From Eretmocerus hayati (lineage: Eukaryota; Arthropoda; Insecta; Hymenoptera; Aphelinidae), in the NCBI GenBank assembly GCA_029851415.1, contig CM056743.1:122046305-122110304 (forward strand): a DNA stretch of 64,000 nucleotides. Reading direction: 5' to 3'. Numbering within the stretch: the stretch's first letter is position 1; the number at the start of each line of letters is the position of its first letter. Shown piece after piece: positions 10,030 to 63,028 of this stretch. The notes under the pieces were generated by a model that searched no databases, was not told where the DNA came from, and was given only the letters and a program-made list of their open reading frames with translations. A program made the position numbers and the translations under genes.

Positions 10030-10316
10030 GATCGAATTATATTCAGTCATTATAATGCACGAGTTCCATCGAAATCACATGGAAATTCGTAGGGCATTTT
10101 TTGAAAAGAAAAAGACAGGTAAAAAAATATCTTCCCAGGTGAGGTTTGAACTCACGATCTCTTGCTAGCCGGGCGGTTGCGTTACCAACTACGCTACTGG
10201 GGCGATGCGGAACTCTGCTCATTCTAGGTGTTTTTCTTTCCAAGAAATGATTTGCGAATTTCCATGTTATTTTGATGGAATTCAGATGCATTATAATGAT
10301 TGAATATAATTCGATC
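10030..10316. mobile_element. Short TIR element enclosing a tRNA-like unit
   Basis: GATCGAATTATATTCA..CATTATAATGC at 10030-10057 pairs with the mirror sequence at 10287-10316, and TTCCAT.GAAAT.ACATGG continues the arms inward. The centre holds a tRNA-like sequence on the minus strand. The combination of TIRs with a Pol III unit is unusual. Confidence 0.6.
10131..10203 (-). ncRNA. tRNA-like sequence (pseudo-tRNA or SINE head)
   Basis: On the minus strand, TAGCGTAGTTGG fits box A exactly, GCG..CGC forms a D stem, GTGAG TTCAAAC CTCAC is a perfect T arm, and CCCAG/CTGGG forms five acceptor pairs. The anticodon stem does not pair and two acceptor pairs are lost, so it is not a functional tRNA. 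A run of seven T downstream could end Pol III transcription. Confidence 0.5.
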
Positions 10317-15555: not shown

Positions 15556-15617
15556 AGTTTAGAATCAATTTTTGTCTCGATCGATATGAACGATCGAGAC
15601 TTTATCGCTCGCGGGAA

Positions 15618-18248: not shown

Positions 18249-18732
18249 TCATTGTATTGGTGTCAGATTCAAAAGATTGATCCATGAGGCCTGAATCTTT
18301 TGACAAAGCCACTTCAAACTATCAGAAGGTATTTGAACTTGTTGATCATGTTGGTCGATTTGATCTAGGTGTGGCAGGAATGTAGTTGCAGCGTAGATGT
18401 TAGAGAAGTTGATAAAACTAATGCTCATGTTCCAAATATACCACTGCATTTCACAAGGGGCACTGATCAAAAAGCCACATGAATATCCTGCAACTGTAAT
18501 CAACAAGAACCGTCATCTGAGTAAGCATGGTGCAAGATCCAACGAGGAAAACCACTACCAATACTAACCATGCAAGTTGCCAGACAAAGTAGAACATACG
18601 CCTGATAATGGTACTCAAAAATTATATTGATATCTCATCGTCCAAATGAGGATATAAAATGGGTGACTTACATAGCATATGATAGGTGGTGATAGCCAGA
18701 AGACTGTGGGGACTATGGCTTTGCATACTCAT
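18249..18732 (-). CDS. Hypothetical three-exon gene in left palindrome arm, 110 aa
   Basis: On the minus strand, exons 18732-18672, 18601-18569 and 18487-18249 join in frame (61+33+239 = 333 nt) with GT-AG borders and give 110 aa. The ATG has a Kozak-like GCCGCC before it. The protein starts MSMQSHSPHSLLAITTYHML, and the main exon carries CEMQWYIWNMSISFINFSN and ends NLLNLTPIQ. No family was recognised. The equivalent in the right arm carries a stop codon. The model could be chance, since only splice signals and frame support it. Confidence 0.3.
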
Positions 18733-19743
18733 GGCGGCACCAGTCTTCCTGAAACTGAAAATTCATCTAGACACAAAGGGCCAGGCTCTCTGATCAAAAG
18801 CATTCATCAGAAATATTCAATGAGACTACTCATCTGATGCACAAGTCCATACTATACGTTAGCGGTTGGCAGAGGTCATTTGTCCACACCAGTGCGTGTA
18901 AAATTATTCGCACCACGTTCATCAGATTTATTCCTAGTATAGCAAAATCACAGTTCTCCTCCAGAAACCGAGTTATAACTACAAACGCGTCGGAAAATCC
19001 AGGAAAATACACAACGGTTTCTTCGGCGCTGCAGAAATGCACGGGTTGAAGCCACGCGGTCTGAGCCCGACATCGGAGCTGTAACGGCTATTCAGTTAAT
19101 CAGATGGAGTATTCACTGAAAGATCAATCTCATGAAATATTCAGAGAGTGCTTAAATTGCTCTATCTATTCAATTAAAATTATGAATTGTTCCCTCATGT
19201 AATATCCACTCGCGTCGTGTGCGCGTGTGCAGCAACTGCGGCTAGAGATATCTGAAAATTCCGTGTAAGAACAATTGATTATTTTGATAGAATAGAGGGA
19301 ACAAATTCGGGAATATTCAAGTCTATCCTAAAATTGTTAACTTTTGATCGTCCACATCTGAATTCCTAGGCAGCCGTTGGAGCTCCGATCAGTAGTTCAG
19401 ACCAGAATTTCAGACCGCATGGCGAACTGACTTTTGCATTTCTGCAGCGCCGAAGAAACCGTTGTGTATTTTCCTGGATTTTCCGACGCGTTTGTAGTTA
19501 TAACTCGGTTCCTGAAGGAGAACTGTGATTTTGCTATACTAGGAATAAATCTGATGAACGTGGTGCGAATAATTTTACACGCACTGGTGTGGACAAATGA
19601 CCTCTGCCAACCGCTAACGTATAGTATGGACTTGTGCATCAGATGAGTAGTCTCATTGAATATTTCTGATGAATGCTTTTGATCAGAGAGCCTGGCCCTT
19701 TGTGTCTAGATGAATTTTCAGTTTCAGGAAGACTGGTGCCGCC

Positions 19744-20227
19744 ATGAGTATGCAAAGCCATAGTCACCACAGTCTTCTGGCTATCACCACCTATCATATG
19801 CTATGTAAGTCACCCATTTTATATCCTTATTTGGACGATGAGATATCAATATAATTTTTGAGTGCCATTATCAGGCGTATGTTCTACTTTGTCTGGCAAC
19901 TTGCATGGTTAGTATTGGTAGTGGTTTTCCTCGTTGGATCTTGCACCATGCTTACTCAGATGACGGTTCTTGTTGATAACAGTTGCAGGATATTGATGTG
20001 GCTTTTTGATCAGTGCCCCATGTGAAATGCAGTGGTATATTTGGAACATGAGCATTAGTTTTATCAACTTCTCTAACATCTACGCTGCAACTACATTCCT
20101 GCCACGCCTAGATCAAATCGACCAACATGATCAACAAGTTCAAATACCTTCTGATAGTTTGAAGTGGCTTTGTCAAAAGATTCAAGCCTCATGGATCAAT
20201 CTTTTGAATCTGACACCAATACAATGA
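19744..20227 (+). pseudogene. Right-arm copy of the three-exon gene, nonsense mutation
   Basis: Exons 19744-19804, 19875-19907 and 19989-20227 mirror the left-arm gene. At the start of exon 3 the codon TCA of the left copy is TGA here, which would end the protein after about 33 residues. The rest of the exon is almost unchanged. Confidence 0.3.
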
Positions 20228-21364
20228 ATAGTCTACACCCTTGAAAGAAGACTCGGAAGTGTTATGGACAAGACTCTTTGTGGAACTAACTACATGAAAC
20301 GCTTAGATGTTAACTTTCCATCTATCCCGCACCCTGAACTCTGATTATATTGCAGTAATGAATTCATCCATCTTGCATGAATTCCCTATTTTGCTTTCCA
20401 AAAGTTAGTGTGATGCATCCCATTTTCAGTGGAGAAAATAAATGCGTGATCCATGGATATGTATCTCAACAGTGGGTTGATTGACTTCCAAAAATGTCTA
20501 TTTTTCAACTTGAGGATGTCCATTGTGCGCATGTTACTGATTTTTCCCCCTATTATTTACTCCATCCATATGGCCAAGGATGGAGGAAATAAGGTAATAT
20601 TCGCTAGCTCTTTCTTCAAATTTATCATCACACTACAACTAAAATTGAGCCTGACCATGATGAATAATCACATTTTTGCCTTCTTCTCAATCTGAACAAG
20701 GATCTGATCATTATGATAGATATTTCGACTTACGAGCAGTTTTGCTCCAACCCTGTGGGACGCTTCGACTCTGATTTCAGTAATGTACAAGTCCAAATCG
20801 CTTTTGAACATTCCATCCAGGAGTAATTTTTGCATCAAATCTTCAAAACTTGGAGAATTGCTTACTGGAAATAATGTAGAAAAATGCAGTTCATTTCAGT
20901 GAAGAAAGATTTGCAGCTCCTAATATTGAGCCATTCTGAGGCTTGAATAAACATTGTTCGCCCTCCCCGAATTTTTTTAATAAACTAGCACAAGGATGGA
21001 AACTGGTCACACGCTGAGAACAATCGTGAATTACTAATATGAAATTTGGGAACGTTCTCATTGAACTCATTGTTGGAGACAAACACAGGGAACGTACGAA
21101 ATTTAAATCTTTGTACTGCGTAAATTTATTCCAGGGCAAAATATTTGAAAATCTATTTTTGAGCGATGATTGATATGGTGATGCTATCGCTAAAAAGTAC
21201 GGGAATTTTGAAGCACTCACCCACCGACTCTGCCACTGATTCGGTCATTGCACAAAATCATGATTATGCCACAGACTCGGTGACTGTCTCAGATTACCGA
21301 CTCGGTCACCGACTCCGTTCGCCGAAGTGGTGACTGACTCCGATATTTTCAGTAGGGTGTAAAA

Positions 21365-23597: not shown

Positions 23598-23599
23598 TA

Positions 23600-25927
23600 G
23601 TCCGGCGGCCGAGCATGGTTCCGTAGCATTTTGGATGTGACCGGACAAAAGTTGTGTATTCCCATGTATTTTGACCCGCTGAATCCGATTTTCGATGGTG
23701 GAAAGTCGGAAAAGTGGGCCAAAAATTGTTATTAACAAATTATTGTTAACAATCGTAAAATTGATTTTTTCGCTCCGGAAAAATTTTTTCTATATTTTTT
23801 GGCACATTTTGAATCAAAAAGGTCTCCACATAAATTTCATGAAAATGCACCGTTTTTCCGTGAAAAAATCGGAAAGTTTCAAAAAACACGATTTTTTCAA
23901 TTTTGCAACAATTGTTGCTCGGCGGTGCAACAGAATTTTTTGATCCACCATGGCGCAAATTGATCCTTGAAGCCTCTCCTACTGATAGAAACCCCAAAGA
24001 AGTCAGTATGCTACCTCCTGTGAGTGTAAAAACGTCGAGAGCGACCCTCTATTTTTGGTGCATTTCTCGCTATACATACACTTACCCATACCCAAGCTCG
24101 CGACATGATTCCCTTCCGTGGGCTTCGTGCACTAGGGTCACATGTAGACAAATAATTCCTCGTATTTTCGCGTACGTGTGTGTGAAAACTTCTTGGGAAA
24201 CTCTTGGAAAATTTCGAAAAATTCATTGTAAAAAATTGCATAAAAAACACGAAATTGACTCTGATAAAACAAGAACGCTGTGACCTCTTTGAGTGGAACG
24301 GTTCAGGAGATTTTGGGAGAATACAACAGTCATCAATGATTTTCACGTTGGATGTATGTCATACGCGTTTATATCAGCGTCGAATCAAACTAAATCTTTT
24401 GATCCGAATACCGAGTCGTGGTGACCTCAATAATATTGATACGTACAGACCTTGATTTCAACAATGATGCAAATTTTCTCAACTTCGATGATTACTCTAC
24501 AAAATGTATGATAACAACAGCGCTATAACAATTATTTGATAAAAGAGAGAAGCATTTCCTCCGATTTCTTCGTTGTCAGCAAGTTCTACCATACTATATT
24601 CCATGTGAGAATTCAAATCTCCCGCCGTGAGAAGTTGTGCTGCACGCGAACTTCTGGCTGGATTGAACTTGCTTGCAGTTCCATCCATCAGTAAAAATTC
24701 TAGTCACCACGAGAAATTGATACTATTAAGTATAAGTTGAAATAACAGATCGCTCAAATGAAGTGTCCAACAGCGCGGAGGACTGGTATCAACACGTATA
24801 GCGCCCAGATGCTATAGTGCTTAATCCGTTGGAATTTGGGTATGTTTTAAAAGATGGCGCGATGGTACCTGCTAGGGTGGAAATTCTCACTCCTCCACCA
24901 TCAGAGTTGATCCCAAGTTGCCAGGGCCATCAGGTTTGCTCTAAATCAACTTGTGTATGTGTAGCACCTTGAGTAAATTGTTGCTCGTTTTGCTTTTGCC
25001 AAAGAGGTCAGAAATGCAAGAATGAAGTAGCATCTTCATGATTTTGTAATCAATTCTTGACATACTAATATTCACCCCAGTACATGAAAGTATTTTTTCC
25101 CTACTATAGTACCCGGTATTCGGATCAAAAGATTTAGTTTGATTCGACGCTGATATAAACGCGTATGTCATTCATCCAACGTGAAAATCATTGATGACTG
25201 TTGTATTCTCCCAAAATCTCCTGAACCGTTCCACTCAAAGAGGTCACAGCGTTCTTGTTTTATCAGAGTCAATTTCGTGTTTTTTATACAATTTTTTACA
25301 ATGAATTTTCCGAAATTTTCCAAGAGTTTCCCAAGAAGTTTTCACACACACGTACGCGAAAATACGAGGAATTATTTGTCTACATGTGACCCTAGCGCAC
25401 GAAGCCCACGGAAGGGAATCATGTCGCGAGCTTGGGTATGGGTAAGTGTATGTATAGCGAGAAATGCACCAAAAATAGAGGGTCGCTCTCGACGTTTTTA
25501 CACTCACAGGAGGTAGCATACTGACTTCTTTGGGGTTTCTATCAGTAGGAGAGGCTTCAAGGATCAATTTGCGCCATGGTGGATCAAAAAATTCTGTTGC
25601 ACCGCCGAGCAACAATTGTTGCAAAATTGAAAAAATCGTGTTTTTCGAAACTTTCCGATTTTTTCACGGGAAAACGGTGCATTTTCATGAAATTTATGTA
25701 GAGACCTTTTTGATTCAAAATGTGCCAAAAAATATAAAAAAAATTTTTCCGGAGCGAAAAAATCAATTTTACGATTGTTAACAATAATTTGTTAATAACA
25801 ATTTTTGGCCCACTTTTCCGACTTTCCACCATCGAAAATCGGATTCAGCGGGTCAAAATACATGGGAATACACAACTTTTGTCCGGTCACATCCAAAATG
25901 CTACGGAACCATGCTCGGCCGCCGGAC
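23600..25927. mobile_element. TA-flanked 2.3-kb inverted-repeat element
   Basis: Ends are TA|GTCCGGCGGCCGAGCATGG and the exact reverse complement. The arms 23600-24414 and 25113-25927 (815 bp) are about 98% identical, with a unique 700-bp centre. All long frames in it are mirrored between the arms; the centre holds a minus-strand frame (24497-24688) that I do not recognise. It interrupts a unit of the 700-bp tandem repeat, which resumes directly after it. Confidence 0.8.
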
Positions 25928-26045
25928 TAGCAAGAGAAATTCCCCACAACAACAAAAAATTGGAAAAAAATTCTCTTTATCCCATCAATTTTAGTTCTTA
26001 AGATTCACAGGTAATCTCCGAAGAATTCCCAAATGCCACCATTTC
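25928..26045. repeat. Remainder of the interrupted 700-bp tandem repeat unit
   Basis: AGAGAAATTCCCCACAACAAC and CAATTTTAGTTCTTAAG match positions 22191-22300 of copy 2 and continue the unit cut at 23597. Confidence 0.7.
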
Positions 26046-37800: not shown

Positions 37801-40800
37801 ATATGAAAGAAGTGTGGAAAAAAAGTCACAAGTATACAGCCATCAAATATTTCAATAGATTCAAATGTGAACTGAAAACTTTAGATGGAGAGAGAAAGAT
37901 AAAATTGATAGATGAATTTTTGAGGTCTACTCAATGAACAAATTTATATATTATATGTCAAAATGTCTAAACTAGACTCAATCAAAGTCACTAGACCAAT
38001 GTACGCACATATTATTAGGTAATATTTCACTACTTCGTTTTCAATTTGAGAATTTCATGTATTTTTAGGATTAAGTCTTAGAATAATATAAGTCAGCCGC
38101 ACACAGGCGAGATTTCCGCCTCTGCGGAGTATTCTGTACTGTTTCAATGTAAACCTGGCTCAATAAATATCAAATATCAAAGGTCTTTTTCCCGTTTCAT
38201 AGAGTTGAAAAAAGATAGTTCCAACAGTTTATAGGGCCAAAAAAGATATGGCTTTTCTGGAATTTTTTTTGTGCGTAAAAATGTCAAAAAAAAGTAGAGA
38301 ATGATTTCTCGGAACTCCTTGTAGAGCTCTGAATTTATTCTCATCGTATTTGCCGAGTCATTTTACATCGAAAATGTATTTTCTAAGAATCATTTGAGTC
38401 CTTAAAAGTCGTCAAAACACTGAAAAATCATTTCCAAAGCACATTTTTGAACAAAAAATGGCCTCACCAGCATTCTCATTAGGTTTCGGGCTCCTGAAAC
38501 TAATATCAAACAATAGCCCTTGAAATTTCCTTCAAAATGGCCTATTTTAAAAGTCTATTTGATGCACAAGGAGTGGATTTGTAGCCAGTCGAATCAAGAC
38601 AAGAATGTCAAGAATGAAATCTGTGAGCCCTACGTAGCCATCTCATAACTTCAAAGACTCTTTGGCAGCTGTGTACCACATCATTCGACGGAATCGAGTT
38701 CGGCAAGAGGTTTTTTGGAAGAAAATTGACCCAGCTTTCGATTGAAAATGGTATTGAGACCATCGAGTTGGTCCCGTGGGCTGGAGATCCACCATTATGG
38801 AAGAGGAACAGAACTGTTAACTGAATATCGTTCGTTAAACGTGAATCATTTTCTACTTTTTTTTTGACATTTTTACGCACAAAAAAAATTCCAGAGAAGT
38901 CATATCTCAGGAGAAATACTTCAAATTTCTTTTTAGTGTAGTTTGAAACAATATCAATCGAAATAAAAATTAAAAAAAAAATTTTTGGGGGGTCAAAAAA
39001 GATATGGGTTACACCGTGAATGAAGGTTACTTTGAGTCTGGCAAGGGCCAGAACGACTTTTAGAAGGCTTTGCGGATGGGAAATCGATAGGTTTTTGACC
39101 CTTCTTCCGAATGCCGTAAGCCAAATTGCGATTGGTGAGGATGTTCAGAAGTTATATGCAAATACCCGAGGCAATGTTTCAAATCTTGGATTCATGGCAA
39201 AACCGCTTACATGTACCCAGGTGATGCAAAAAAATTTTTTTGGCCCTATAAACTGTTGGAACTACTTTTTTCAACACTATTTAACGGGAAAAAGACCTAT
39301 GAAGGGATAAAAAATGGTCGGAGAAAACCTTGCTGGATTGACGTGGAATTACTCATATATTACAGCTGAACTAAGCTCACATTTGGATTCGGTGACCCCA
39401 AAAACCTATAGGTATCATACTTCAACTGCCACATCCCAATTATCCGAGTATTACCCGAAAATCATGGTTTCTTAAGGTTATGTCAAAATCCTGACACTCT
39501 GGAGCAAAACTGACCCCGGATTCGGATTCAGCGACCCCGAAAACCTATGAGTATCATACTTTAACTGCCACATCTCAATTCTCCGAGTATTACCCGAAAA
39601 TCAGGTTTTTTGAGGTCATTCCAGGGTGTCAAAATCCTGACGTGCTGGAGCAAGAGTGACCCCGGATTCGGATTCAGCGACCCCAAAAACCTATAGTAGA
39701 CATAGTGAGACTATCAGATCGGAAATTTATTTTTCGCCATCGTTGCGTATAATACTATTTCATGTGGCTGTGTAATTGATCAACTCTGAACCAGATTTGA
39801 CATTTCAAAACAGGGAACAAAAGCGGAAATGATTATCAAATTCGAAAAATACATTGCGGATCGCGTTGCATATAGATTTTTGAGTACAAGAGTATTGGAT
39901 CTACAGCTTTTTTGTAGGTAATAAGTCAAAGTCAAGAACTTTTTGACAGGAAATGAATTTTATTCAAGTCAGATCATATTAATCGAATGAGATCCAAGGA
40001 TTCGTTGTATTGCTAACAATTTCCAATAACAACATCTATGAATAATACGTTTCCAGTCTTAATAACTCTACATTCCTCAGTATCATTGGATTTTCTTGCT
40101 CTTTCGGTGTGACCTCCTTCCCAGTCTTCTACACCAAGTCTACAATCAGAGAAACTTCTTCTTAGCACAGTAGTACTTAGATACACTTCAACACGGAAGC
40201 AATCTGTGAGGCGGATAACAAGATATCAATAGAAATTACAGTCAGAATCTCACAGTATAACTTTTACGAAGATGATTCATATCTACCAAACAAGTTTCTC
40301 CCAAAGTTTGTATCTATTAACGCTTTTTTCTCATCAGTTGCTTGTAGTGCAACATAATTTCCCAATAATACCGATTTATTAAATAATGCTTTCAGTATGC
40401 TTCTCATTGAATCCTTGCCATCATTCTTGGAACAAATGATCGATGTGGAATATGTTTGCTGGAAATTTTTCAACAGAGAAATTTAGCAAAACCCGGGGAA
40501 AACGCAATGGGCCGTGACCCCCGGAGGTCACGGTCCTATGATGGGCCGTGGTCCCCGGGGGTCACGGTCCCATGGTGGGCCGTGGTCCCCGGGGGTCACG
40601 GTCCTATGGTGGGCCGTGGTCCCCGGGGGTCACGGTCCACCAGTATACTACAAATTCTCTTTGCTCTATCCGGGTCTTCGACTTGCCGGCATCACCAGAT
40701 TAAACACTAGGATGAATCAAAATTCAATTTAACTCGCTTCAGTAATATTCTACTGTTGCCTGTTAATAAGAAGTGTGTGAGAAGGCTGACGCTGCTTGGC

Positions 40801-43800
40801 TGAAAGGTGGCATAATCAGGTGGAGGTAGAGCCTTAAAATTGTAATGAATTAGTTATGAAAATATGTATATGATGAATTCCTCGCCAAAGCGACCTACGG
40901 AAAGGGGTCATCTCTCAGATTCTTTTTTGACCTTTTTCATTCGATTCTATGGCCCAAAATGGGAACTTCAGACCACCTATGGAGTCAAAAAAAAATTTCT
41001 CCTCTCCATTGCACGCACATACGTAAATAGACCGAAAATCCATCGTGTAAAAATCAATGCTCTTTTATTCACGAAAATGGGAATATTTTGAGTTTTTGGA
41101 TAACTATCAATTTGCGGGTTGCGGCATCTGAAAGGGCATCAGAAAGCCTATTGAAAACGTCATCGGAAATCCTTTCTCTGTGATTTGGGGGCCTTCTGAA
41201 GGCAAACAAGTGTTTTTCACAAAATTGTTAATTCCTCAAAAAGCCATTTTTTTATTTTTCGAAAATCAGATATTTGACGTGAAATTTTGCGTTCTTTAGA
41301 AAATAGTGGGTCTCAGAGAAGTTTAGGGCGGTCCAAGTGACTTATGAGCCATTTTTTGAAAATTTGATTTTTTCGGTTCCAGAAAAAGGCGATTTTCTGC
41401 GCATGCGCACAAACGTAGACTTTGGCACCACTTTCAATGGAAAGCTGACAAAATTTCCTATAAAATGACTACCCGCAAAGTTGAAATTCATCACTGAGAC
41501 GGGATCTGCAACGATTAATTATGTCGAATCAGAATCACATGAAAATTCAATCCATTAACACCTTCGTGGCGCCTGCTGAGATGACACATTTACGAGATCT
41601 TCTCGGGACTTAATTTTGAGTACGAAATTGACCTGAAAAAAATTCGGACCACATGGTTTCAACGTGAAATTGTATGAACTTTCAGAATATGCGATGAAGA
41701 ACCCCGTTTGAGGCAAACCCGAGGTGCTACATTCGATTCTTGCCAGAAAATACTATTTTTCACATTCAAAATTGCATAAATATGCGATGAATTTTCCATC
41801 GCATATTTTGAAAGTTCAGACAATTTCACGTTGAAACCATGTCATCCTCATAATTGAGTCCCGAGAAGATCTCGTAAATGTGTCATCTCAGCAGGCGCGG
41901 CCGCAGGCGCCACAGAGGCGTTAATGGGCTGAATTTTCATGTGATTTTGATTCCATATAATTAATCGTTGCAGATCCTGTTTCAGTGCATGAATTTCAAC
42001 TTGGCGGGTAGTCATTTTATAGGGAATTTTGTCAGATTTCCATTGAACATGGCGCCGAAAGTCTACGTTTGTGCGCATGCGCAGAAAATCGCCTTTTTCG
42101 AAACCGAAAAAATCAAGTTTTCAAAAAATGGCTCGTAAGTCACTTGGATCGCCCCAAACTCCTCTGAAACCCATTTTTTTCGAAAGAACGCAAAGTTTCA
42201 CGTCAAATATCTGATTTTTAAAAAATAAAAAAACGGCTTTTTGAGGAATTAACGTTTCAGTGAAAAACACTTGTTTGCCTTCCGGTGGCCCCCAAATCAC
42301 AGAGAAGGAATTTCCGACGACGTTTTCGATAGGTTTTTTGATGCCCTTTCAGGTGCCGCAACTCGCAAATCGATAACTATCCAAAAACTCGAAATATTCT
42401 CATTTTCGTGAATAAAAATCGATTTTTACACGATGAATTTTCGGTCTGTTTACGTATGTGCGTGCAATGGAGAGGAGAAATTCTTTCTGGACCCCATAGG
42501 TGGTCCGAACTTCCTATTTTGGGCCATAGGATCGAATGAAAAAGGTTAAAAAAGAATCTGAGAGATGACCCCTTTCCGTAGGTCGCTTTGGCGTGGAATT
42601 CATCATATAGCACCCATATCTGCTATCACTAGGGTCTTAGATCCTCTAGCTCAACAGCATCATGAGGAGAACAAAACTCAGCAGGTGTTCGAACGCCATA
42701 ACCTTGGAATATGTAGTTAAGAGATAATCATTCGGGTATATAATGGGATACGGGGCGTTCCTTACTCAGGATGATCAAGGGTTTGTAACGGGATATATTT
42801 CCAATTCCGTTGGATTTTCTTGATTTGAAATAATTATTAGAGTCATATCACATGGAAATATTGATCTTTGGGTGTCGAAAATGTGCCAGCCTTAAATCTC
42901 ACTCCCGAAGATTTTAAGGTGTATTTAGCGACTTTTTGGAATATATATGAACTCGCTCACAAGTATCGATATTCTCGAATATTTTTGGGCTGTGCAAAAA
43001 ATTAGAATCATCAAATACTGCGCGATTTTGCATTTTATCGCATTTTTTGCTCGCGGCTCTTCTGTCTTGATATTTCGATTTTTCTATGTAGCACCATATT
43101 GTAGACAATGAAATTTTCTAAATATTTGAAACAAAGTTCATCTTTTTATCTATTATCTAAGTTACTAAAATTGGCAAAAAAGGCGAAAAAGGACGAAATT
43201 TTCTTTGATTGTTCATTCCGAGAAAAGGCAACCGATAAATGTGTCAATGCCGGGGCATAAAGTCCTCGTTAATCTGAATATGGGCCATTTCGGAGCAAAT
43301 CATCGAATCCCGGCACCAGGGGGGTCTGGAACGAATCCCAAAAAATTTTTTTCCCGTTAATACCATCTTGATATAGTTCAAAAAAAATTTTTTGGGATTT
43401 TTTCTAAGGCCCCTGTTGGCCCTGGGGCGTGTAAAAAGTCCTTCCAGACCCCTCGTACTTTCTTCCTTCCAATACCTACCAATTTCTAGGAGCTATTTGC
43501 TGAGAGAACATTTTAACGATTTTCGGGCTTGCTTCAAAGTGATGTAGCTCCCAATTGACTTTTACCAGTGGTCATTTTGAAGTTCTTGAAGAAAGCTACA
43601 ATTTGACTGCTAGTAAAAGTCAATTATCGAACTTTTCATAGGGGTTACAGTCGTTACAAGTTGACCAGTTTTGTAAAAATGCCAAACTTTGAGCTGAATT
43701 TGAATTAAATCGTTTTTCTTCCTTCGACCACACATCTGTGCGAATATGTTTTTTGATACAAATAATATCAATCAGAACAATAATCTGGGTGGGATATTGA

Positions 43801-46800
43801 ATTCTATTCAGCCAATTTAAAACACTCTCTGAACTAGTGTGCAACAAATGTGTGGGATTACTCTCCAATCAAATGTGTCTGAAACCTCCCGGAGGCGAGC
43901 CTCGAGCTAGATGCGAGCAGGAGGTTCTATTTTACGAGTTGAATATGGGCATTATTCCGTTTATTCGGACGCAGGCGAGAGTGGGATTTCACTCATTCTA
44001 GCTCACGAATGAGATGAGCCGCTAAAACAGTTATCCAAACATGTTCTCCCGACTCCAAATGACCATTTAAACACGTCCTCATGATCAACTTGGTTCTTAT
44101 TCATCATCTGAAGGCACTCCATCGAAAAACATATAACTACAGTGTTTTCTAGTCTGAGAGCAACTATGAATATTTTGGAGCGAAACTGACCCCAAAATCG
44201 TGTTTAGATGATCATTTTGAGTCAGGCAACCATGTTCGTATCCCTCTTTCCGCTGCTCATCTCATTTGTGAGCTGGAATGAATGAAATCCCACTAACTCT
44301 CGCCTGCGTCCAAATAGACGGAATAATGTTCGACGGTTCCATTTTCAACACGTAAAATAGGATCTCCTGCTCGCATCTAGCTCGAGGCTCGCCTCCGGGA
44401 GTTTTCAGACACATTTGATTGGAGAGTAATCCCACACAGGTTGTTGCACACTAGTTCAGATGGAAGCATATGCGAGCCATACCTGTGAGGTCATTTTGAG
44501 CAAAAAATCAAAATAGAGTGTTTTAAATTGGCTGAATAAAATCGAGAATTCAATATCCCACCCAGATTATTGTTCTGATTGATATTATTTGTATCAAAAA
44601 ACATATTCGCACAGATTTGGGGTCGAAGGAATAAAAACGATTTAATTCAAATTCAGCTCAAAGTTTGGCATTTTTACAACACTGGTCAACTTGTAACGAC
44701 TGTAACCCCTATGAAAGTTCGATAATCGAATTTTACTAGTAGTCAAATTGTAGCTCTCTTCAAGACCTTTGAAATGACCACTGGTAATACTCAATTATCA
44801 TATGTCTAGTAAGAGCTACATCACCTTGACGCAAGGCCAAAAATCGTTAAAATGTTCTCTCAGCAAATAGCTCCTAGAAATTGGTAGGTTCGAGTACCGA
44901 CCTTGGGCAATTCTCTTCATCAAAGTACTAGTCTTAAGGAAGAAAATACGCCCAGGTACGTCTAAAAATGTAGAGTCTGGTCGAAGTTATGATTTTCTGG
45001 AAACAGGCTAAAGAGGGGCCTGGAAGGACTTTTTATAGGCCCCAGGGCCCATAGGGGTCTTAGAAAAAATACCAAAAAATTTTTGTACTATATCAACATG
45101 GTATTAACGAAAAAAATGTATCAATCTTTTCGTGCGATATTTCTCTAATAATTATTTCAAATCAAGAAAATCCATCGGATTTGGATAATATATTCCGTTA
45201 CAAACCCTTGATCATCCTGAGCAAGGAACGCCCTGTATCCCGTTATGTACCCGAATGATGATCTCTTAGCAACATATTTCAAGGTTATGGCTTTCGAATA
45301 AGTGCTGAGTTTTGTTCTCCTAATGACGCTGTTGAGCTGGTGGATCAAAGGCCCTAGTGATAGGAGATACGGGTACTAAGGTAAGTATACCCAACTTGCC
45401 TCTGTACCCAACTTGCCCCCATATCCCGATCTTGGGAATGGGCACTCCTTGGCCCCCGGGCAACTCTTTTTCACGTTTGTTATGTTGAAATATGAGAAAG
45501 TAAGTAGTTTGTGTCAACCCCGAATCTTTCCTGCGTTCTTCAGAAAATTTGAACTGATTTTTAAATTTTTCGTGATTGCTTAGCTAAGAAAGTACCGAGG
45601 GAATCGCCTTCAGTAAAATCCGTGCTAAATTCTTTGAGTTCAACCAATCTTAACGTACCTCAGCGCATTCGATTCCTTGTTTCAAGACCTTCAAAATCAA
45701 TTTTTCAAAATTGCAATATTTGGATCTGGAGCTGATTTATGTGCAAAACACGGATACGATTTGTAAACAAGGATGCCAACATCGAAGTGTGCTTAACATG
45801 CCCCCATATATTTATCTCGAAAGGGCGTGCAGTACGACTTTTTTTACCTCTCAGACCGTGTTTATCACGCCAAAATAGGAAGGAAAGAGTGTTTTGGACC
45901 GGTGAGAAGTTCCAAATGTGCGTGTACGGCGATAAAAACACTGTACCGCCGATTTCCATAATTGATTTTTGAAGAATTGAGACAGTTCGGATCCATTTCA
46001 TCAAAACGAGACGTAGCTCAGTGCATTTTAAAGGACCTAAAACAAGCTTCAAAATAAGCTTCAATACGTAGGAAAATATTGACGTAGACTAGAGTTGTTG
46101 GGGAAGTGGCTAAATAAGGGCAAATTGGGTACGTTATTTTGTAAACTCTGAAAAATCACTTTTTGGAAAAGTTAAGACAGCTCGGCTCCATTTGATTGGA
46201 TTTGAACGTACTTAGATTCATTCTAAAGATCTTAGAACAAGCTTTAAAATGAGCTAAAGCACGTTGAAAATTGTTGAGGTAGACCAAAATTATTAAGAAA
46301 ATGGCCTAATGGGGGCAAGTTGGGTACACTTACAGTACCGTTCATAAGTTCTCGATGGTCGATCCCTCGATTACCCCGACTTGGAACAGCAATAAGTCAA
46401 ATTCTATGCGTTGTACGAAAATTTTCAAGAAAGCATCTTACAGAGCAGAAAAAATACTAACTTTTACTGGGTTTTGATGATTTTTATCGAATATTTTTGA
46501 CGGTTCTACACGCTGATGAAAAAATAGAAAATCTAAAAATTTTTTACTTTCATTGAGACACCTGCAGTTTTAATGCAAATAAAGATACGGCAATTCTGAA
46601 AAAAGCATCTTGTAGAGCGGAAAAAATGCTATGTGTAGCCATTTTTTGATTATTTCTCACGTACCGCGCATGAGAACGTACGAGCTGTCTAGATACCCAA
46701 AATGACTGCTTATCATCGGAAACGGCACAGAAAACGGTGAAAAACCATGATTTTGGGGATTTGGACAGCTCGCACGTTCTCACACGCGGTACGTAAAAAA

Positions 46801-49800
46801 TAATCAAAAAATGGCTACACATAGCATTTTTTCCGCTCTACAAGATGCTTTTTTCAGAATTGCCGTATCTTTATTTGCATTAAAACTGCAGGTGTCTCAA
46901 TGAAAGTAAAAAATTTTTAGATTTTCTATTTTTTCATCAGCGTGTAGAACCGTCAAAAATATTCGATAAAAATCATCAAAACCCAGTAAAAGTTAGTATT
47001 TTTTCTGCTCTGTAAGATGCTTTCTTAAAAATTTTCGTACAACGCATAGAATTTGACTTATTGCTGTTCCAAGTCAGGGTAATCGAGGGATCGACCATCG
47101 AGAACTTATGAACGGTACTGTACCTTATACATATTTTTATCACTGATTCATTACAATTTTAAGGCTCTACCTCCACCTGATTATGCCACCTTTCAGCCAA
47201 GCAGCGTCAGCCTTCTCACACACTTCTTATTAACAGGCAACAGTAGAATATTACTGAAGCGAGGTAAATTGAATTTTGATCCATCCTAGTGTTTAATCTG
47301 GTGATGCCGGCAAGTCGAAGACCCGGATAGAGCAAAGAGAATTTGTAGTATAGTGGTGGACCGTGACCCCCGGGGACCACGGGCCATCATAGGACCGTGA
47401 CCTCCGGGGACCACGGCCCACCATAGGACCGTGACCTCCGGGGGCCACGGCCCATTGCGTTTTCCCCGGGAAGTATTGGAGGCGATGCGTTTCATACAAG
47501 ACATTGAGGAGAATTCTCACCAAATCTCGTCTCAAAACTAGACTTCCATTCCTCGAAATCTGACTGAATAAAAATCAAAATCAGTACACTAGACAAGTCA
47601 CCATATGAGTATCTCCGGCATCTGTCTAATTCTCATCCGCACTTGACTAAATGCCAAAACGGGCTCTGGCACTCAATAATACCTTGAAAGTCTTGCTTTT
47701 TAGCAAGCTCGGGCATGTGGAGTGGAGTAACTTCAGTAATAATTGTGGAAGGCTCTGTCGATTCGTTAACATCAGGTAACTGATTAGTCGATGGATCCGA
47801 GGGTACGCCTTGTGGTACAGTGGGCTCAATAGTGATTACTGCATCATCGGGCAAAAATTAACACGTTCGCTGCGGCGGGACCCACGGGTGGGTCCCGCGA
47901 TTTTTCATTTTCCAATCTCATCCAGTCTGTAATGACTCGAAAAATACACCCAGTAAGAACTTTCCAAGGTGATTCACTCTGTCTAGGGCTCGACCAACGA
48001 ACCAAAAAAAGTTTGCTCCGATCCAAGCATTTTTACCAGGATACGGGGGTCCAGTTCATGAGAGAAATGAAATCACGAAAACCCGGCTTCGCAGCGAACG
48101 TGTTGATTTTGTTCAGTCGAATCAGAAGCATCCTCCTGACTGAAAATAATTCTGTGGGACCCCATGGGATCCCATGTAGTCCCATGGGACTTCGTGGGAC
48201 CTGGTCCTGGGAAAATTTTTGATCACGACACTTGGGCAATTTGGCATCCAAGAAGTGTAGCATACAAATTTTGACCATTTCTCTTCCAAAAATGGTTGAA
48301 TTTGGTCGATTATGGTCAAAATTAGTAAATTACTCGTCTCCAATGCCAAATTTTGTAAAACACAAGATTGGAAATTCTCCCAGGGCCAGGTCTCACCAGG
48401 TCCCGCGAGGTCCCATGGGATCCCTGTGATCTGATAATCTAGCAGCCAGGTTCTCGACAGATGCAACAGGTTCTCGACTGGCAAGAGAGTATTGTCACGT
48501 AATAATCTTGATTTTGTGTTATCATTGCGAATAACTGAACTTCCACAACAAATATTATCTATAAGTAGTAATTATAGTGAGTCATCTTGTAGTACATGTA
48601 TGATGTTATATAAATACCATCTTGATTCTTCCGAAGAAGGGTTTGATTAGACTCAACAGTTGCCTGACTGTTTTTCGATTTTTTGGAGACCGATGAATCT
48701 TTATTCACATTTCAAGTGTTTGGAGGTTGTCTAGTCCTCAATTTTTCCATCTTAGGTTCTGCAAGCCAAAATAGACATACAGTGAGCCATCACTCTTCTT
48801 CTGGATATGAAAAACTGCGTTCGGCTTCAAAAAAGTTTCCAGAAATAATGGTAGAGATAATACCAGCGATTTTAGTCATTTGAGTAAAGGATCAACCCAA
48901 ATTCTTGCTACAGTGGATTCTATTATCCAATTCTTCAAATCTGACTTGAATTCCCTGTGACTGTAGAATAAATCTTTCACATCCATTTGAGTGACAGATG
49001 ATGAATGTTTCGATGCCAAAATGTCATATTTGATATCACATTCTATAGGAATTCCTACAGCACCAACTGCTACGGAATGAGATTCAGTATCTTCTACAAA
49101 TTATGCACTGACAGTTTCATAGTCTTGATCCACACTCACATTAGGTCGTTTTTGAAATTTATTCTGCCCGTTCAATCAACGTCCTTTCGTTAGCTGCGTG
49201 GTGGCGACTAGATCTAAAACGTGGCACTCGCTCTTTGACAACACCTCTTGCTTCATTAATTTTGTTCATGTTTATTTCTCTGAATAAACGGACTACAAAA
49301 TAAAAATTCAGATAGAGAGGCTCATCTTTCCATCCGCGCGCTGTAGGTTATGACTCAAATGTGTTTACATAGCGTCTGCTGACGAATTAGAGCAAATGCA
49401 GTACTTATTGCCCCGAGAATGCCATCCAGGTGCCTCGAGGGGAAGGCGTTACACCTCCAATGCTCTCCAATACATTTGCCTCTCGGGGCCACCGCAAAGA
49501 AAGGGGTCTTAACCCCGTGGAGGCTCGGCCGGAAAGCGGCATTTTCTGATCGGGAGGTTCCATTGGTAGAGGAAAAATTCGGGCGTTACCCTTCACAACA
49601 AGGTGGGGCCCCCATGGTAAGCCGTGAAAGCTGCACGGGGAATTCGAAAAAAAACTAAATGGAGATATTTTGAGGCAGGGGGAGTAATTTGTGAATCATC
49701 TATAATTTTGCCAAACTCTGTAAATTTCTCTTTGATTTTTCACTACTCAAAGATAACTTCGTTTTGAGGTCAAGATCTGTGAGAAATAAACGTGATATTT

Positions 49801-57130: not shown

Positions 57131-57580
57131 ATTCGGTCTAGTTCAGTCTAGTATGGTCTAATACGGTCTAGTTCGGTTTGGTTTGTTCTCATTCGGTCTA
57201 GTTCGATCTACTTTGGCCTACTTTGGTCTAGACCAGATTGGACCGAACTAGACCGTATTAGACCATACTAGACTGAAGTAGACCCAATTAGCCCGAATTA
57301 GACCGAACTGGATCAAATTAGAACGAATTAACCGGATCTAGACCCAACTACACCGAGTTAGACAGAAGTAGACCGAACCAGACCGATCTAGATTGAAGTG
57401 GATCGAATTGGACCAGTCTAGACCGTATTTGACAATACTAGACTGAACTAGACCGAATTAGATCGACCTAGGCCTAATTCAATAGAACTAGACCTACCGA
57501 GACCTTATTACCCCGAACCAGACCGATGTAGATCGAGCTAAACTCATTTAGATCGAAGTCGACTTAAGTAGGCTAAACCT
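57131..57580. repeat. Decamer satellite with strand switch
   Basis: About ten units like TCGGTCTAGT (57131-57229) turn at GGTCTAGACC (about 57226) into about 30 units of the reverse complement (ACTAGACCGA), diverging towards 57580. The two halves could fold as one long hairpin. Confidence 0.75.
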
Positions 57581-57638
57581 AACCTAATCAAAAGGATCAA
57601 AAAGATCCATCAAATTCTTTGCGACTAGATATATTTTT

Positions 57639-58143
57639 TCGCAACTGTGTGCGCGAAGTTGTAAAAAAATGAGACTTCTCTTCATTATTTACAGTGCGAG
57701 AAGTAATGCGTGAATGACTTCTCGCACAGTTTTACATTTACGCACTGGTGGAGTGTGCGTAAATGTAACTTCTCGCTCTAATGCATTCTCATTCACGCAC
57801 AGTCTCAAAATATGACGTCACGTCATCCCTCTGAATTTGGCCTTTCTTGAAAACTTTGTTTTTGCAACTGTGTGCGCGAAGTTGTAAAAAAATGAGACTT
57901 CTCTGCATTATTTACAGTGCGAGAAGTAATGCGTGAATGACTTCTCGCACAGTTTTACATTTACGCACTGATGGAGTGTGCGTGAATGTAACTTCTCGCT
58001 CTAATGCATTTTCATTCACGCACAGTTCCAAAATATGATGTCACGTCATCCCTCTGAATTTGGCCTTTCTTGAAAACTTTGTTTCCAAGATAATCTTGCT
58101 CGGACAGTGGTGCATTTAATTACAACTTCGCGCACAGTTGCCA
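57639..58143. repeat. Inverted-repeat element with a 223-bp internal duplication
   Basis: GCAACTGTGTGCGCGAAGTTG recurs at 57641 and 57864, and its reverse complement occurs at about 58122-58141. Both duplicate units contain GCGAGAAGT and GTGCGTGAATG-type motifs (CG-rich) and TGACGTCACGTCA or similar. Confidence 0.65.
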
Positions 58144-58335: not shown

Positions 58336-58412
58336 TTCTCACACTCGTTTGGCAACTTGTGCGGAAATTGACCTTCTCGCACTTGTTGCGTAATATACTA
58401 CCCGTGAAAAAG

Positions 58413-58548
58413 TGTTTGGTACATGATCACGCATGACCGTGTACCGCTCGTGGTACATGATCACGCATGACGGCGTACCGAAAATGGCGGTACGTCGTCA
58501 TGCATGAATTATGCATGACCATGCATGAACTATGCATGACCATGCATT
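58413..58548. promoter_or_regulatory. Subterminal repeat cluster in BEN-element TIR
   Basis: Direct repeats of TACATGATCACGCATGAC occur twice about 36 bp apart, followed by four ATGCATGA/ATGCATGAC units and mirrored GTACCG/CGGTAC steps. The same cluster lies inverted at about 62879-63013. Subterminal arrays like this commonly bind the mobilising protein; binding by BEN is inference. Confidence 0.5.
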
Positions 58549-58549
58549 G

Positions 58550-58580
58550 TATAAACTAGTGAACATACCGTCAATTATTT
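58550..58580 (+). promoter_or_regulatory. Candidate TATA box of the BEN gene in the left TIR
   Basis: GTATAAACTAG gives a TATAAA at 58550-58555, with GTCAATTA about 20-25 nt downstream as a weak initiator. The same box exists inverted in the right TIR. Position upstream of the first ATG is compatible with a BEN gene leader of about 450 nt. Confidence 0.25.
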
Positions 58581-59033
58581 GCTACTTCGGTGATCACAAA
58601 AAGATCTTGGGTTGTGAATCAATCCAAAAATTTCTTCACTCTCTTTCTTTTATTATGTCTTAACATAACTTCAGCTAGACAGTCATAATGGAAATGAGTT
58701 TGTCAATACTTTGAAAATGAGATATACATAGGAATGTCACAACAAGAACGATAACATTAATAGGAAATCAATAACGTGATAGGAATTTGGGTTTAGTTTC
58801 ACCCGAGAAACTAAATCAACATAATAATTTGTGAAAAAAAGACATACAGCTTTCATAATATGATACATTCTTCACTATGAAATCCATAGTGTGGTCGAAA
58901 TTCATAAATCTCAAAATTTTCTTACTATGGCGTAAGGAAGCAGAGTGCGTTGCGAAGCGATCAGTTCATTCCCGTTAACCTTGCAAATTTGTTCATGCGT
59001 TTGGCACATCGTGTGATTCTCAATTGAATTATC

Positions 59034-59184
59034 ATGTACATCATTAAATGTATCGAGGACGGTGATATTTGTGAAATACGGAACGATAATGTATTTTGCG
59101 ACCACAAAACTGTGAAACCTGGAAGCATCGTCAAATTTCGTTACCTGAATTCGATGTACACTGGCAAAGTTTTGACCTATTCTG
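59034..59184 (+). CDS. BEN gene exon 1 (Tudor/SH3-like domain)
   Basis: 50 codons plus one nucleotide, ending TATTCTG before donor GTGAGC. It encodes the whole predicted N-terminal beta-barrel, a tidy one-exon domain. Confidence 0.75.
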
Positions 59185-62100
59185 GTGAGCATGACATACG
59201 AAATATATTGACCTCATAATTTTTTCGTTCCTGTGAAGACGATTTTTTTTTAAAGATTAACTAGTAGAACGCGAAATAGTCATGAGTGCAATTTTTATAG
59301 ATGATCTGGAATTAATACAAGAGACCTATCTATTGCTGACTCAAAGAAAAGTGTCTCAAAATACTCCAGAGGAGAAGGGTTTGAAGGGAAAATTGATTAA
59401 ACCATCAAAAGTACCTAGACAAGTATGTAATCGAGGTAAAGATGTACAATACAGTGCCATTGAACAGGTAAGATATTTTCAAAGATGAACTTTCAGATTG
59501 ATGTAAAACCTCCTGCACGCTTAAAGGGGAATGAACTTTTAAAAATTTGTAGCAATCAATTCTAGAAGTCGAGTAGCCCAATATCAAATTATGTCCGATG
59601 GTAATCTAAATGACTTTTTGAGGAATTGTGGTGTTCTTTCTCGTGCGTTTTTCAATCGAATTATTCACCTCCCAAGTGAAATTTATGGTATTCTACAAGT
59701 AGTGTCATATTTTTCTCTTGATTTCTTGTAGATTGAGCTAGAAACACAGAGAGCTGAACAAGCTATCCAGCGGCAAATAGCGTCATTGCAGGACACCCGT
59801 CATGCAGAAGAAGATTCTTATGATAATGATGAGCTTGATAGCTATTCCACCAATGTGATGAATTTTGAATGTGATTCTGACTCTGATCAACCCAGTCCTG
59901 CCAAGAATAAGAACCAAGCTAATTTGAAACGTAAAGGCTATAATTCTTCTGCCAAGAGAAATGATAGTCCTGCTTCGAAAAGAATCAGAAATGAGGCAAA
60001 CACTTCATCTTGTCACAGTCAGGATAACGTCGAGAAAAATCAATCAGGTAAGATTCAAAGAAGCTCTATAACGGTTTGATGTATAAGCTCGAAAATCACT
60101 CACTTCGATCGAATTGAGAGAAGTGATGAGGTCATGAGATAATAAAGCACAGGCTCAACTTGTGAACTTTTTCTGACATACTGAAATCTTCAGAAAATTC
60201 TGCTTTTAAACTAAAACTGATGTGGATTGACTGGGTAGGTTGATCTTTTTCATGTACTCGTGGCATACATCATCTCATTACCAGCTATTGATTTGAAAGA
60301 TATTTAAATACAAAGATACCAAGTTTAATCCTTCAATTTCTAAGATTAACAGAAGATCGGAAATGAGTTTAAATGTCCGACAATATGTCGATCTGTGGTT
60401 AGTCAAAATTTGCTGGGATAATGCTTATAATACTTTGATGACTTTCAGGCTCATCAGTTATCCTGAGAAGGTCAAGCAGAATCAACAATAATACTAAACC
60501 TGATGAGAGGGTCCGAAAGAGGAATTCATTTCATGAGAATAGTATATCCTCAGACCCCGATGAAGATGAATTAATGACTCGGGAGCTAAATTATCAAGGT
60601 GAGCTTCATTCAACAAATCTTTGCTCAAGCAATATGATTTCATATGTCTCTGCGGAGTAACGACCGGACTATTCCCCATGAAATTATTTAGAAACAGTGC
60701 ATAAGAAATGACCATAGTGATGGATTCCTCTGACAACTCTCGAGTCTGATTTGTATTAGTTTTTGAGCTGTGGCGACGTGAGGTAGATGGAAGTTTTCAA
60801 CTTGCAAACTTCCATTAAGTTGGTAGTTATGTTCAAAACATTCAAAGCGTTAGGAGAACATTGTGAATCTACAGTGCTCAGATCTCTGAAGGAAATCCAA
60901 ATATTGTTCAGGGACGAATTTCAATAATACAAATTTTTGCAACGATCTCCATCCTCTTTCACAAATTAATGCTCGTTTTAATATTCATTTATGAGCTATA
61001 AGCCCGAATCAGTTCAAAGGTAATCTCGCCCCACGAGGACACTAAAAATTTCGTCTTCGTATTGCTTCCTCTCAACTTTCTGAGATTTATCACAAGTTAT
61101 TATATCCATCAATTCAATCGGACGATTTTCTCATTGCAGAATCTCCAGGAGTCTTAAGAAACGAAGATGATGGAATTAGAACTAGAAACAGATCTACAAG
61201 AACTCAAACTCAGGAAGTTTCAAATAATCAAAATAGATCTCAGCTTGAAACCCAACTCCCAACTGGTTATGCTCCAATTGTGCACGAGCAGCTGTTTGGA
61301 GAAAATTGCGAAGGATCAAAGGTAAATCTGTCTGACACGGTCAGTGCGAAATTCCCTGAGGCGTGTTTTAATGTGTCACTCAAATTTTTGAGCTGACAAA
61401 ACGACAGTTCACTTAGGGTCATGGCTCAGGGATTATGAGCCAACAAAATCGAAATAGTTTATACGAGTTGATTCTGAAATTTCTCATCATAATTTCCCTT
61501 AAGCATCATATCCGTGTAGCCACACTCCGGTTTAATTTTTACGCCACTTTTGTTGGAATGTGGTAATTTTATGCAATCGATCATTTTCGAGAGGAACCAG
61601 AGGATCTGAAGATTTGAAAAGTTTTCAAATCTGTATTTTTTTGCTATTGTATCCGAAGTCTCTCATTCAAGTGAATGTTTCATGGTGAAAAATTTGGCAT
61701 ATTTAGGAGTTTATCCCGAATGTTTCATATTTTCAGATGAGCGAACTTGGAAATGGAATTTTCTGCAAAGAAAGTACAGTCGATTACGCTTTGAGCTCGA
61801 CTAACCCTCGTCAGTGCTGCAGGAAGCTGATGAGAGGTGTCTTTACACTAGACGCAATTTTGCACTGTAACTTTTCACAAAAAAATGCCAGGAGACCTCA
61901 TCAATGCGAAGTACCAAGCTTGTGCGAACAATGCCAATTGAGACAGACTAGACAGATTGAAGCTCCAGATAGTTTCAAGGCAGGAGTTTTGTATGGTCCA
62001 GCGGTGCAAGAAATTATAGGTATGTACAGAGTCATCTGTTTATGACTCAAAATTTTGATGGAGTAACTCGTTTGATTTCAACTATTCTATTGATACTACT

Positions 62101-62269
62101 TTTATTGATAACAGCGTTTACAAAGAGAAAGGCAGAGGAAATCAAGAACTGGCCAAAAATGAGTCACTCAAACATAAGAAGAGGGATGTCACAAAATGTG
62201 ACGGATATCAGAGTTGCCTACTACGCAGAGCAAAAGTGGGGCAAACCTTTCAAGTACGAAATTCCTTGA
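59034..62269 (+). CDS. BEN-domain protein, seven exons, carried by TIR element
   Basis: Exons are 59034-59184, 59301-59467, 59732-60047, 60449-60598, 61140-61321, 61737-62019 and 62115-62269, total 1404 nt, so 467 aa plus stop. All introns are GT-AG and phases match. An in-frame TGA 9 nt before the ATG fixes the start. Residues 2-50 (KPGSIVKFRYLNSMYTGKVL) look like a small Tudor/SH3-like barrel. Residues about 107-135 are Glu/Gln-rich and may form a coiled coil, followed by an acidic stretch and a basic patch (LKRKGYN, SKRIRN) that could be a nuclear signal. From about 323 to 455 lies a BEN domain: ELGNG, NPRQCCRKLMRGVFT, then VQEIIAFTKRKAEEIKNWPK and IRRGMSQNVTDIR. BEN domains bind DNA or chromatin. 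The intact reading frame argues for recent or continuing function. Confidence 0.82.
59301..59467 (+). CDS. BEN gene exon 2
   Basis: Acceptor TTTTTATAG at 59300; the exon completes a split GAT codon and ends GAACAG before GTAAGA. It encodes a leucine-rich start (DDLELIQETYLLLTQ) and a basic KGLKGKLIKPSKVPRQ stretch. Confidence 0.75.
59732..60047 (+). CDS. BEN gene exon 3 (coiled coil, acidic and basic linker)
   Basis: Acceptor TTTCTTGTAG, phase 0 start ATT GAG CTA, donor GTAAGA. The sequence runs from a Gln/Glu/Ala-rich probable coiled coil through an Asp/Ser-rich acidic segment to Lys/Arg clusters. Confidence 0.78.
60449..60598 (+). CDS. BEN gene exon 4
   Basis: Acceptor ACTTTCAG, donor GTGAGC, both junctions phase 1. 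It contains LRRSSRINNN and an acidic SSDPDEDEL patch, low-complexity linker with possible phosphorylation sites. Confidence 0.75.
61140..61321 (+). CDS. BEN gene exon 5
   Basis: Acceptor CTCATTGCAG, donor GTAAAT. It encodes an Arg/Thr/Gln-rich linker (RTRNRSTRTQTQ) leading to YAPIVHEQLFGENCEG just before the BEN domain. Confidence 0.75.
61737..62019 (+). CDS. BEN gene exon 6 (first part of BEN domain)
   Basis: Acceptor CATATTTTCAG, donor GTATGT. It begins ELGNG after two residues and contains the BEN core NPRQCCRKLMRGVFTLDAIL. Four Cys in CEVPSLCEQC plus HCNF could hint at a metal site between the BEN helices, which is not usual for BEN domains. Confidence 0.8.
62115..62269 (+). CDS. BEN gene exon 7 (end of BEN domain, stop)
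   Basis: Acceptor GATAACAG; the exon completes a split codon and carries the last BEN helices (RKAEEIKNWPKMS, NIRRGMSQNVTDIR) and a short tail, YYAEQKWGKPFKYEIP, then TGA. Confidence 0.8.
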
Positions 62270-62773
62270 ATCTACTCAAATGATCAATTTTAATTCACCA
62301 GTAAGACGGCTTTTATTCTAAATCATTCAAAAAAATGTCTGAAATAGTATTTTCTTCATTCTGAAGAATGGATATTACTTTGACTACTCTGACAAACAAG
62401 GCCTCATTACTTAGGTGATAATTTGTTACTGTATGTACACCAATGTTTACTCAGTGCTTATCGGACTCTGCTTCCTTACGCCATAGTAAAGAAAATTTGA
62501 TATCAATGAAGGCAAAGTGTTGTGTATAATCACAGTATCATCACGCCATGTATTTCATAGTGATGATTGTATCACAAATTTTCTTTCACAAATTATCAAG
62601 TTAATTTTTTATCACGGGTGGAGCTCTACCCAAATTCCTATCACGTTATTGATTTCCTATTAATATTATCGTTCTTGTTGTATCATTCATATGTATATCT
62701 TATTCTCTAAGTATTGACAATTCATTATAATAGTCTAGCTGAAGCTCGAGCTGAAGTTATATTAAGACATAAA

Positions 62774-62779
62774 ATAAAG
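62774..62779 (+). terminator. Candidate poly(A) signal of the BEN gene in the right TIR
   Basis: AATAAA occurs within ACATAAAATAAAGG, about 500 nt after the stop and inside the right inverted repeat. The left repeat lacks the same hexamer in the opposite direction because of a small difference between the arms. Confidence 0.3.
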
Positions 62780-63028
62780 GAAAGAGAGTGAAGAAATTTT
62801 TGGATTGATTCACAACCCAAGATCTTTTTGTGATCACCGAAGTAGCAAATAATTGACGGTATGTTCACTAGTTTATACAATGCATGGTCATGCATAGTTC
62901 ATGCATGGTCATGCATAATTCATGCATGACGACGTACCGCCATTTTCGGTACGCCGTCATGCGTGATCATGTACCACGAGCGGTACACGGTCATGCGTGA
63001 TCATGTACCAAACACTTTTTCACGGGTA

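Follow-up and report, generated by a model that had tools for sequence, protein, structure and literature searches.

Transposition with the help of a second, DNA-binding protein is known from the plant element En/Spm, which has internally deleted copies and whose TNPA protein, arising by alternative splicing from the transcription unit of the transposase, binds subterminal repeats; TNPA is not known to be a BEN protein. BEN domains are found in host repressors and insulators, and also in some virus genomes. According to the available text of PMC1636069, Spm needs two proteins, of which TNPA acts on the promoter and TNPD stabilizes the binding of TNPA to DNA, and the animal TRC elements have a Transposase_21 transposase, CCC ends and 2-bp repeats. 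A BEN fold is described for DBD1, the end-binding domain of Tn3-family TnpA, in the accessible part of PMC9579193, and DUF4806 is described as a BEN subtype in that of PMC11075544. Here we describe a 4626-bp element at positions 58401-63026 of a 64,000-nucleotide stretch (the window; G000:C3:122046305-122110304) of the Eretmocerus hayati assembly (692 Mb), in which the genome searches were also made. The element carries one gene, BEN1, and we consider it quite probable that it is a non-autonomous deletion derivative of a three-gene TRC transposon, mobilized in trans, whose BEN proteins bind the ends or regulate the element.

In a genome search with the left terminal inverted repeat (TIR), the best 40 of 213 candidates were scored and include six short copies, that of the window among them. 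These are 4626-4629 bp long, lie on three chromosomes with differing flanks, and are pairwise at least 98.4% identical over the element; the target-site duplication (TSD) is TA in five and AT in one, and BEN1 is open with canonical splice sites in all six. Five differ mutually by 0-0.34% over 3.5 kb of internal sequence, and the sixth, L014 (C1:64139899-64145127), differs from these by 1.4-1.5%. Since six near-identical copies stand at different sites with 2-bp duplications, the short element is judged to be a mobile family, and its spread appears from the copies to be recent; an earlier sequence-only reading of the window had proposed a transposon-like element and predicted the same arrangement of TIRs and BEN gene at several loci, as is found. 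L014 has two outer-TIR changes that both of its arms share, which looks like conversion keeping the arms alike. The elements L019-L022 and L025-L029, of ~3.4-4.6 kb, have in common just the outermost 144-154 bp of their TIRs (~80% identity) and show no credible BEN match; they are possibly other deletion derivatives.

A seventh copy (C2:157473925-157493900) is ~20 kb long, with the same TIRs and TA on both sides; it was read as separate pieces, not joined. The short element, from its position ~550 onward, is matched at 98% in DNA by the right part of this copy, where BEN1 is intact. The extra ~15 kb contains a minus-strand frame of 819 aa, from stop to stop, that matches Transposase_21 just over the threshold (E 6.4e-7; 29.2 bits against a cut-off of 28.6), and a second gene, BEN2, with five open exons and a product of 267 or 298 aa depending on the splice site; BEN2 is a homologue of BEN1 (E 4e-19). 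Copies encoding a DDE transposase in place of the BEN gene had been named beforehand as evidence that would speak against a BEN transposon; the 20-kb copy holds its transposase in addition to BEN genes. Comparison with it (L015:849 and L016:6223 on) places the deletion junction of the window element at 58950-58953 (plus strand), where the left TIR is joined to BEN1 upstream sequence and the four nucleotides TTGC are either filler or a native TTGG with one change. Because the joint is the same in all six short copies, the deletion is taken to predate the split of L014 from the others.

On each of three features the family falls within the CACTA superfamily, animal TRC type. Transposase_21 is present above its cut-off in the 20-kb copy and absent from the 4.6-kb form, which is classed as a non-autonomous derivative for that reason. 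The TIRs start with CCC: CCCGTG in the window, its copies and a relative at C1:22.90 Mb, and CCCGAG in a relative at C1:9.02 Mb. Exact 2-bp TSDs (TA, AT, CA, AA, TC, TT) flank 15 of the 17 fetched elements with both ends read, the exceptions being L022, where a 3-bp TAA fits, and L025; this count leaves out L018 (right end decayed), L023, L024 and L027 (one end read), and an element at 40.5 kb in the window (AA/AA). The sequence-only reading was right in seeing a mobile TIR element, but did not recognize a CACTA-type deletion derivative. Other classes fit poorly. Tc1/mariner elements insert at TA only and are disfavoured by copies and relatives at AT, CA, AA, TC and TT and by the Transposase_21 transposase; MULEs make 9-bp target duplications, and those here are 2 bp; Polinton/Maverick elements carry PolB, integrase, ATPase and capsid genes, none of which is matched by the ten ORFs scanned among the 33 listed for the 20-kb copy, the 819-aa one included.

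The arrangement of the 20-kb copy, with a divergent BEN1 upstream of the transposase and a codirectional BEN2 downstream of it, recurs among its relatives. A genome search with the transposase, of which the best 55 of 740 candidates were scored, returns a graded series of relatives, and 19 of these 55 matches (fragments counted apart) have BEN within 15 kb. A search with BEN1 gives 76 exon matches (best 91 of 98 candidates scored), of which 49, the seven BEN1 exons in seven near-identical copies, were set aside. Of the remaining 27, twenty have a listed transposase no more than 15 kb away. They belong to ten loci, namely the 20-kb copy and nine others with TRC transposases of 45-62% identity; 12 are upstream and divergent, eight are downstream and codirectional, and none is arranged otherwise. 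These matches are exons and not independent, and the loci at C1:25.25 and C4:18.12 appear to be one element in two copies. The chance that a random point lies within 15 kb of a listed transposase is 0.24%. BEN1-like and BEN2-like genes are both present at four of the ten loci. At C1:9.02 Mb, where the transposase is 58-60% identical, BEN1 is upstream and divergent with seven exons in the same phases, and BEN2 is downstream with five exons (exon ends picked by hand, guided by homologues), within TIRs of 289 nt that are 98% alike and flanked by a CA duplication. At C1:22.90 Mb (transposase 54%), the TIRs are 581 nt long, 99.5% alike and flanked by an AA duplication, and both BEN1 and BEN2 are present. 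A genome search with the Pfam BEN family PF10523 gives 30 matches, seven of them within 15 kb of transposases of 28-30% identity and again in the two positions just described, upstream and divergent in four cases, downstream and codirectional in three; their equal match scores suggest that these seven represent about three element types.

BEN1 itself consists of seven exons on the plus strand with GT/AG junctions, and its 467-aa product is identical to the annotated QAD02_004000 of E. hayati. Exon 1 (59034-59184) encodes an N-terminal domain (MYIIKCIEDGD..., residues 1-50), and a similar exon is present in the BEN1 genes at C1:9.02 and C1:22.90 Mb. Exon 2 (59301-59467) starts at the annotated acceptor, 59301, and exons 3 (59732-60047), 4 (60449-60598) and 5 (61140-61321) follow from the gene model and the annotated protein. 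Exon 6 (61737-62019) encodes the opening part of a BEN-like domain and exon 7 (62115-62269) the rest of it with the stop, both placed by the gene model and comparison with relatives. All stop-to-stop frames of at least 110 aa in the element overlap these exons, and the single spliced gene of 467 codons stands as first read. Protein searches with BEN1 (E limits 1 and 10) match only QAD02_004000, the window's own protein, and no relative of the element was found in the viral contigs and phages searched; a 19-mer of the TIR that occurs once in viral contig L001 is a chance match with no further similarity.

The membership of these proteins in the BEN family is reached through relatives. BEN1 has neither a PF10523 match of its own nor a match to PDB sequences. 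PF10523 is the best Pfam family of BEN2, at 17.3 bits and below the cut-off of 23.2 (E 0.0057, profile positions 4-75 of 76), and BEN2 alone of five transposon BEN proteins has any such match, even a sub-cut-off one. The strongest of the 30 genomic PF10523 matches, L058 (44.8 bits), is over the cut-off, and BEN2c and BEN2 align with it at E 1e-9 and 5e-8, making them homologous to an over-cut-off BEN, while BEN1 and BEN1b do not match it, in a small comparison of five queries and eight short loci with composition correction off. A profile of the five transposon BEN regions ranks 4IX7 first of 177,635 PDB sequences, collinear over positions 1-113, at an E of 0.28 that is not significant alone; 4IX7 (listed as RE55538p) is presumably Drosophila Insensitive, a BEN-solo factor. 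A longer BEN profile found nothing in the PDB, a BEN2 query found unrelated chains alone (E 1.5), alignment of the BEN profile with a two-sequence profile of solved BEN segments by hhalign gave no support (probability 0.1%), and a single-sequence AlphaFold2 model is unusable at a mean pLDDT of 38. Because its relatives support it, we regard BEN1, with BEN2, as very probably BEN; the initial call of a BEN-domain gene thus finds no direct Pfam or PDB match for the protein itself but is supported by way of BEN2, L058 and the 4IX7 ranking.

BEN1 is apparently kept under selection in the short form. L014 differs from each other short copy (five comparisons) by 8-9 synonymous and 8-9 non-synonymous changes, with dN 0.0072-0.0081, dS 0.028-0.032 and dN/dS 0.23-0.29, the value below 1 that had been predicted for a mobile BEN system, from few changes. 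On 287 synonymous and 1114 non-synonymous sites, a one-sided binomial test gives P 0.003-0.013, and non-synonymous set against intron change gives P 0.02 (counts from the L012 comparison).

The gene order, the common ends of both forms, the deletion junction, the recent spread and the synonymous excess in BEN1 are read from the sequences directly. The proposed parent would be a CACTA/TRC-type element of ~20 kb, and the short form would be moved in trans by the transposase of a longer relative. BEN1 and BEN2 would bind repeats in the long TIRs, and the bound proteins would help to assemble the ends, control the promoters of the element, or both, as TnpA does in plant Spm. By this analogy, BEN proteins are most likely end-binding or regulatory partners of the transposase, and BEN1 retained in the short form would aid its own mobilization or act as a trans regulator.

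The TIRs in which such sites would lie extend from 58401 to 58949 (left, plus strand, starting CCCGTG) and from 62462 to 63026 (right, minus strand, terminating CACGGG), with TA at 58399-58400 and 63027-63028, in agreement with the ~550-bp repeats and TA flanks first noted. The arms of 549 and 565 nt are identical at 493 of 575 aligned columns, perfectly so over the outer 252 nt, and diverge inward. Two imperfect-palindrome units of 30 nt in the left TIR (58417-58446 and 58451-58480, plus strand; repeat family D1) are 93% alike and are candidate binding sites. A 28-nt dyad in the TIR scores 0.79 at best against a mean best of 0.60 across 200 shuffles, with the top shuffle tying this score and an inner-TIR 28-mer scoring equally; as a sign of candidate binding sites the dyad symmetry is suggestive only.

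Several observations weigh against this interpretation, and two rivals concern the origin of the element. The list of transposases comprises the best 55 of 740 candidates, and seven of the 27 BEN1 matches lie more than 15 kb from any of them, two at 23 and 34 kb, upstream and divergent, and five far away. The same holds for 23 of the 30 PF10523 matches, and no transposase is found along 9.4-9.5 kb on one side at the three of these loci that were followed further, so BEN genes outside the transposase association probably exist. Six near-equal PF10523 matches spread over C1, C2 and C3 (L060-L065; 31.8-33 bits, frames of 85 aa) form a multi-copy BEN family; two of its loci were checked, and ~9.4-9.5 kb to one side of each holds no transposase. 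An exception to the usual order is C3:17.29 Mb, where an N-terminal exon resembling that of BEN1 (L037:4105-4233; 38 residues, E 6e-5 to 1e-4) lies upstream of a TRC transposase in the same orientation and is possibly fused to it. The dN/dS test involves 16-17 changes in two lineages; one lineage enters all five comparisons, which are not independent, and a synonymous excess could also arise from gene conversion. The unassociated PF10523 matches would suit the view, raised by the sequence-only reading, that a host BEN gene was captured between the TIRs of an unrelated transposon (transduplication) and has no role in the element, but capture must also account for a pair of BEN paralogues whose places and orientations are constant across ten transposase loci, for exon phases that match in TRC elements with transposases 54-60% identical, for Pfam BEN matches in the same two places beside transposases 28-30% identical, and for the want of a close host donor, the best BEN1 match beyond the seven copies being 59% and inside another such element (91 of 98 candidates). 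Because the BEN genes hold two fixed positions beside diverged TRC transposases, they look native to the transposon family, and we think capture very improbable. Hardly any credence attaches to the 4.6-kb element as the original form, with the 20-kb copy as the same element bearing a nested ~15-kb insertion of another transposon: the two forms do diverge at a single point, just inside the left TIR, but the ends of the extra segment hold no inverted repeat (400 nt on each side, best match 8 nt), the segment has no evident target duplication, in the 20-kb copy the stretch adjoining the left TIR is homologous (81%) to the right inner arm, and the gene order of that copy recurs in other TRC elements with their own TIRs. 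Because of the absent inverted repeat and the gene order conserved elsewhere, an internal deletion within the longer type is the preferred origin of the 4.6-kb form.

Accepting a deletion derivative of a native BEN transposon leaves the purpose of BEN1 to be weighed. BEN proteins act as repressors of transcription and as boundary factors, and selection appears to persist after loss of the transposase; BEN1 could be a chromatin protein with a protective or silencing effect on the element, as an insulator or repressor, rather than an accessory of transposition, with the short form persisting as a repressor-encoding copy. The TIR repeats suit silencing and end-binding alike, and we regard silencing as a possibility of the lesser sort. 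Somewhat more doubtful still is that BEN1 is passive cargo, open merely because the short copies spread too lately for decay: five of the six do differ by as little as noted above, but L014 stands apart from them and shows the synonymous excess. With end-binding or regulatory partners of a transposase preferred, we suggest, quite tentatively, that the paralogous BEN pair is a dedicated end-recognition and regulatory system of a metazoan CACTA-type transposon, and that the BEN-only derivative, spreading and under selection, has come to regulate its parent family in trans.

The window holds other repeats. Tandem repeats of 10 bp and 223 bp lie directly left of the element (57131-58084), and a second element of the same style, at 40492-47470, has TIRs starting CCCGGGGAAAACGC, AA on both sides, 34-bp repeats close to its ends and more inverted repeats inside. 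Long inverted repeats with arms of up to 970 nt, the longest 97-100% alike, are present at 15559-21357 and 23598-25929. A weak Rfam tRNA match at 10134-10201 (32.2 bits), for which ARAGORN makes no call, is perhaps a pseudogene or SINE.

The fixed BEN1-transposase-BEN2 order places BEN domains in a class of DNA transposons, with a testable role at the ends, and a short copy with BEN1 and no transposase makes the purpose of the accessory protein directly testable. Transposon BEN genes are a possible source of the scattered multi-copy BEN genes of animals, and host-genome BEN factors may partly descend from such proteins. Among the titles and abstract openings of a mostly open-access literature, with Repbase outside this scope, none describes BEN genes in a eukaryotic transposon; the literature on BEN with transposon or transposase includes bracovirus papers naming both, and 'BEN domain' was not found in the accessible text of the E. 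hayati genome paper (PMC13116730).

Compared with described systems, the family is nearest to animal TRC elements of the SmTRC1 type, with which it shares Transposase_21 (here in the long copy), CCC-start TIRs and 2-bp direct repeats (PMC1636069, available text). It differs in the length of its TIRs, 289-581 nt against 54 nt in SmTRC1, 27 nt in a beetle element and 10 nt in a mosquito one, and in its two BEN genes, none being mentioned for SmTRC1 in the same text. Drosophila Insensitive (4IX7) differs in being a host factor that is not mobile. Tn3 TnpA DBD1 provides a precedent for recognition of transposon ends by a BEN fold, although that system is bacterial and the BEN-fold domain lies inside the transposase rather than in a gene of its own (PMC9579193, accessible part). 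The combination of a transposase with a second DNA-binding protein is reminiscent of plant En/Spm with its TNPA and TNPD (PMC1636069, available text), and the E. hayati family would add an animal two-component case for comparison with Spm, in which, unlike En/Spm TNPA, BEN1 and BEN2 are separate genes.

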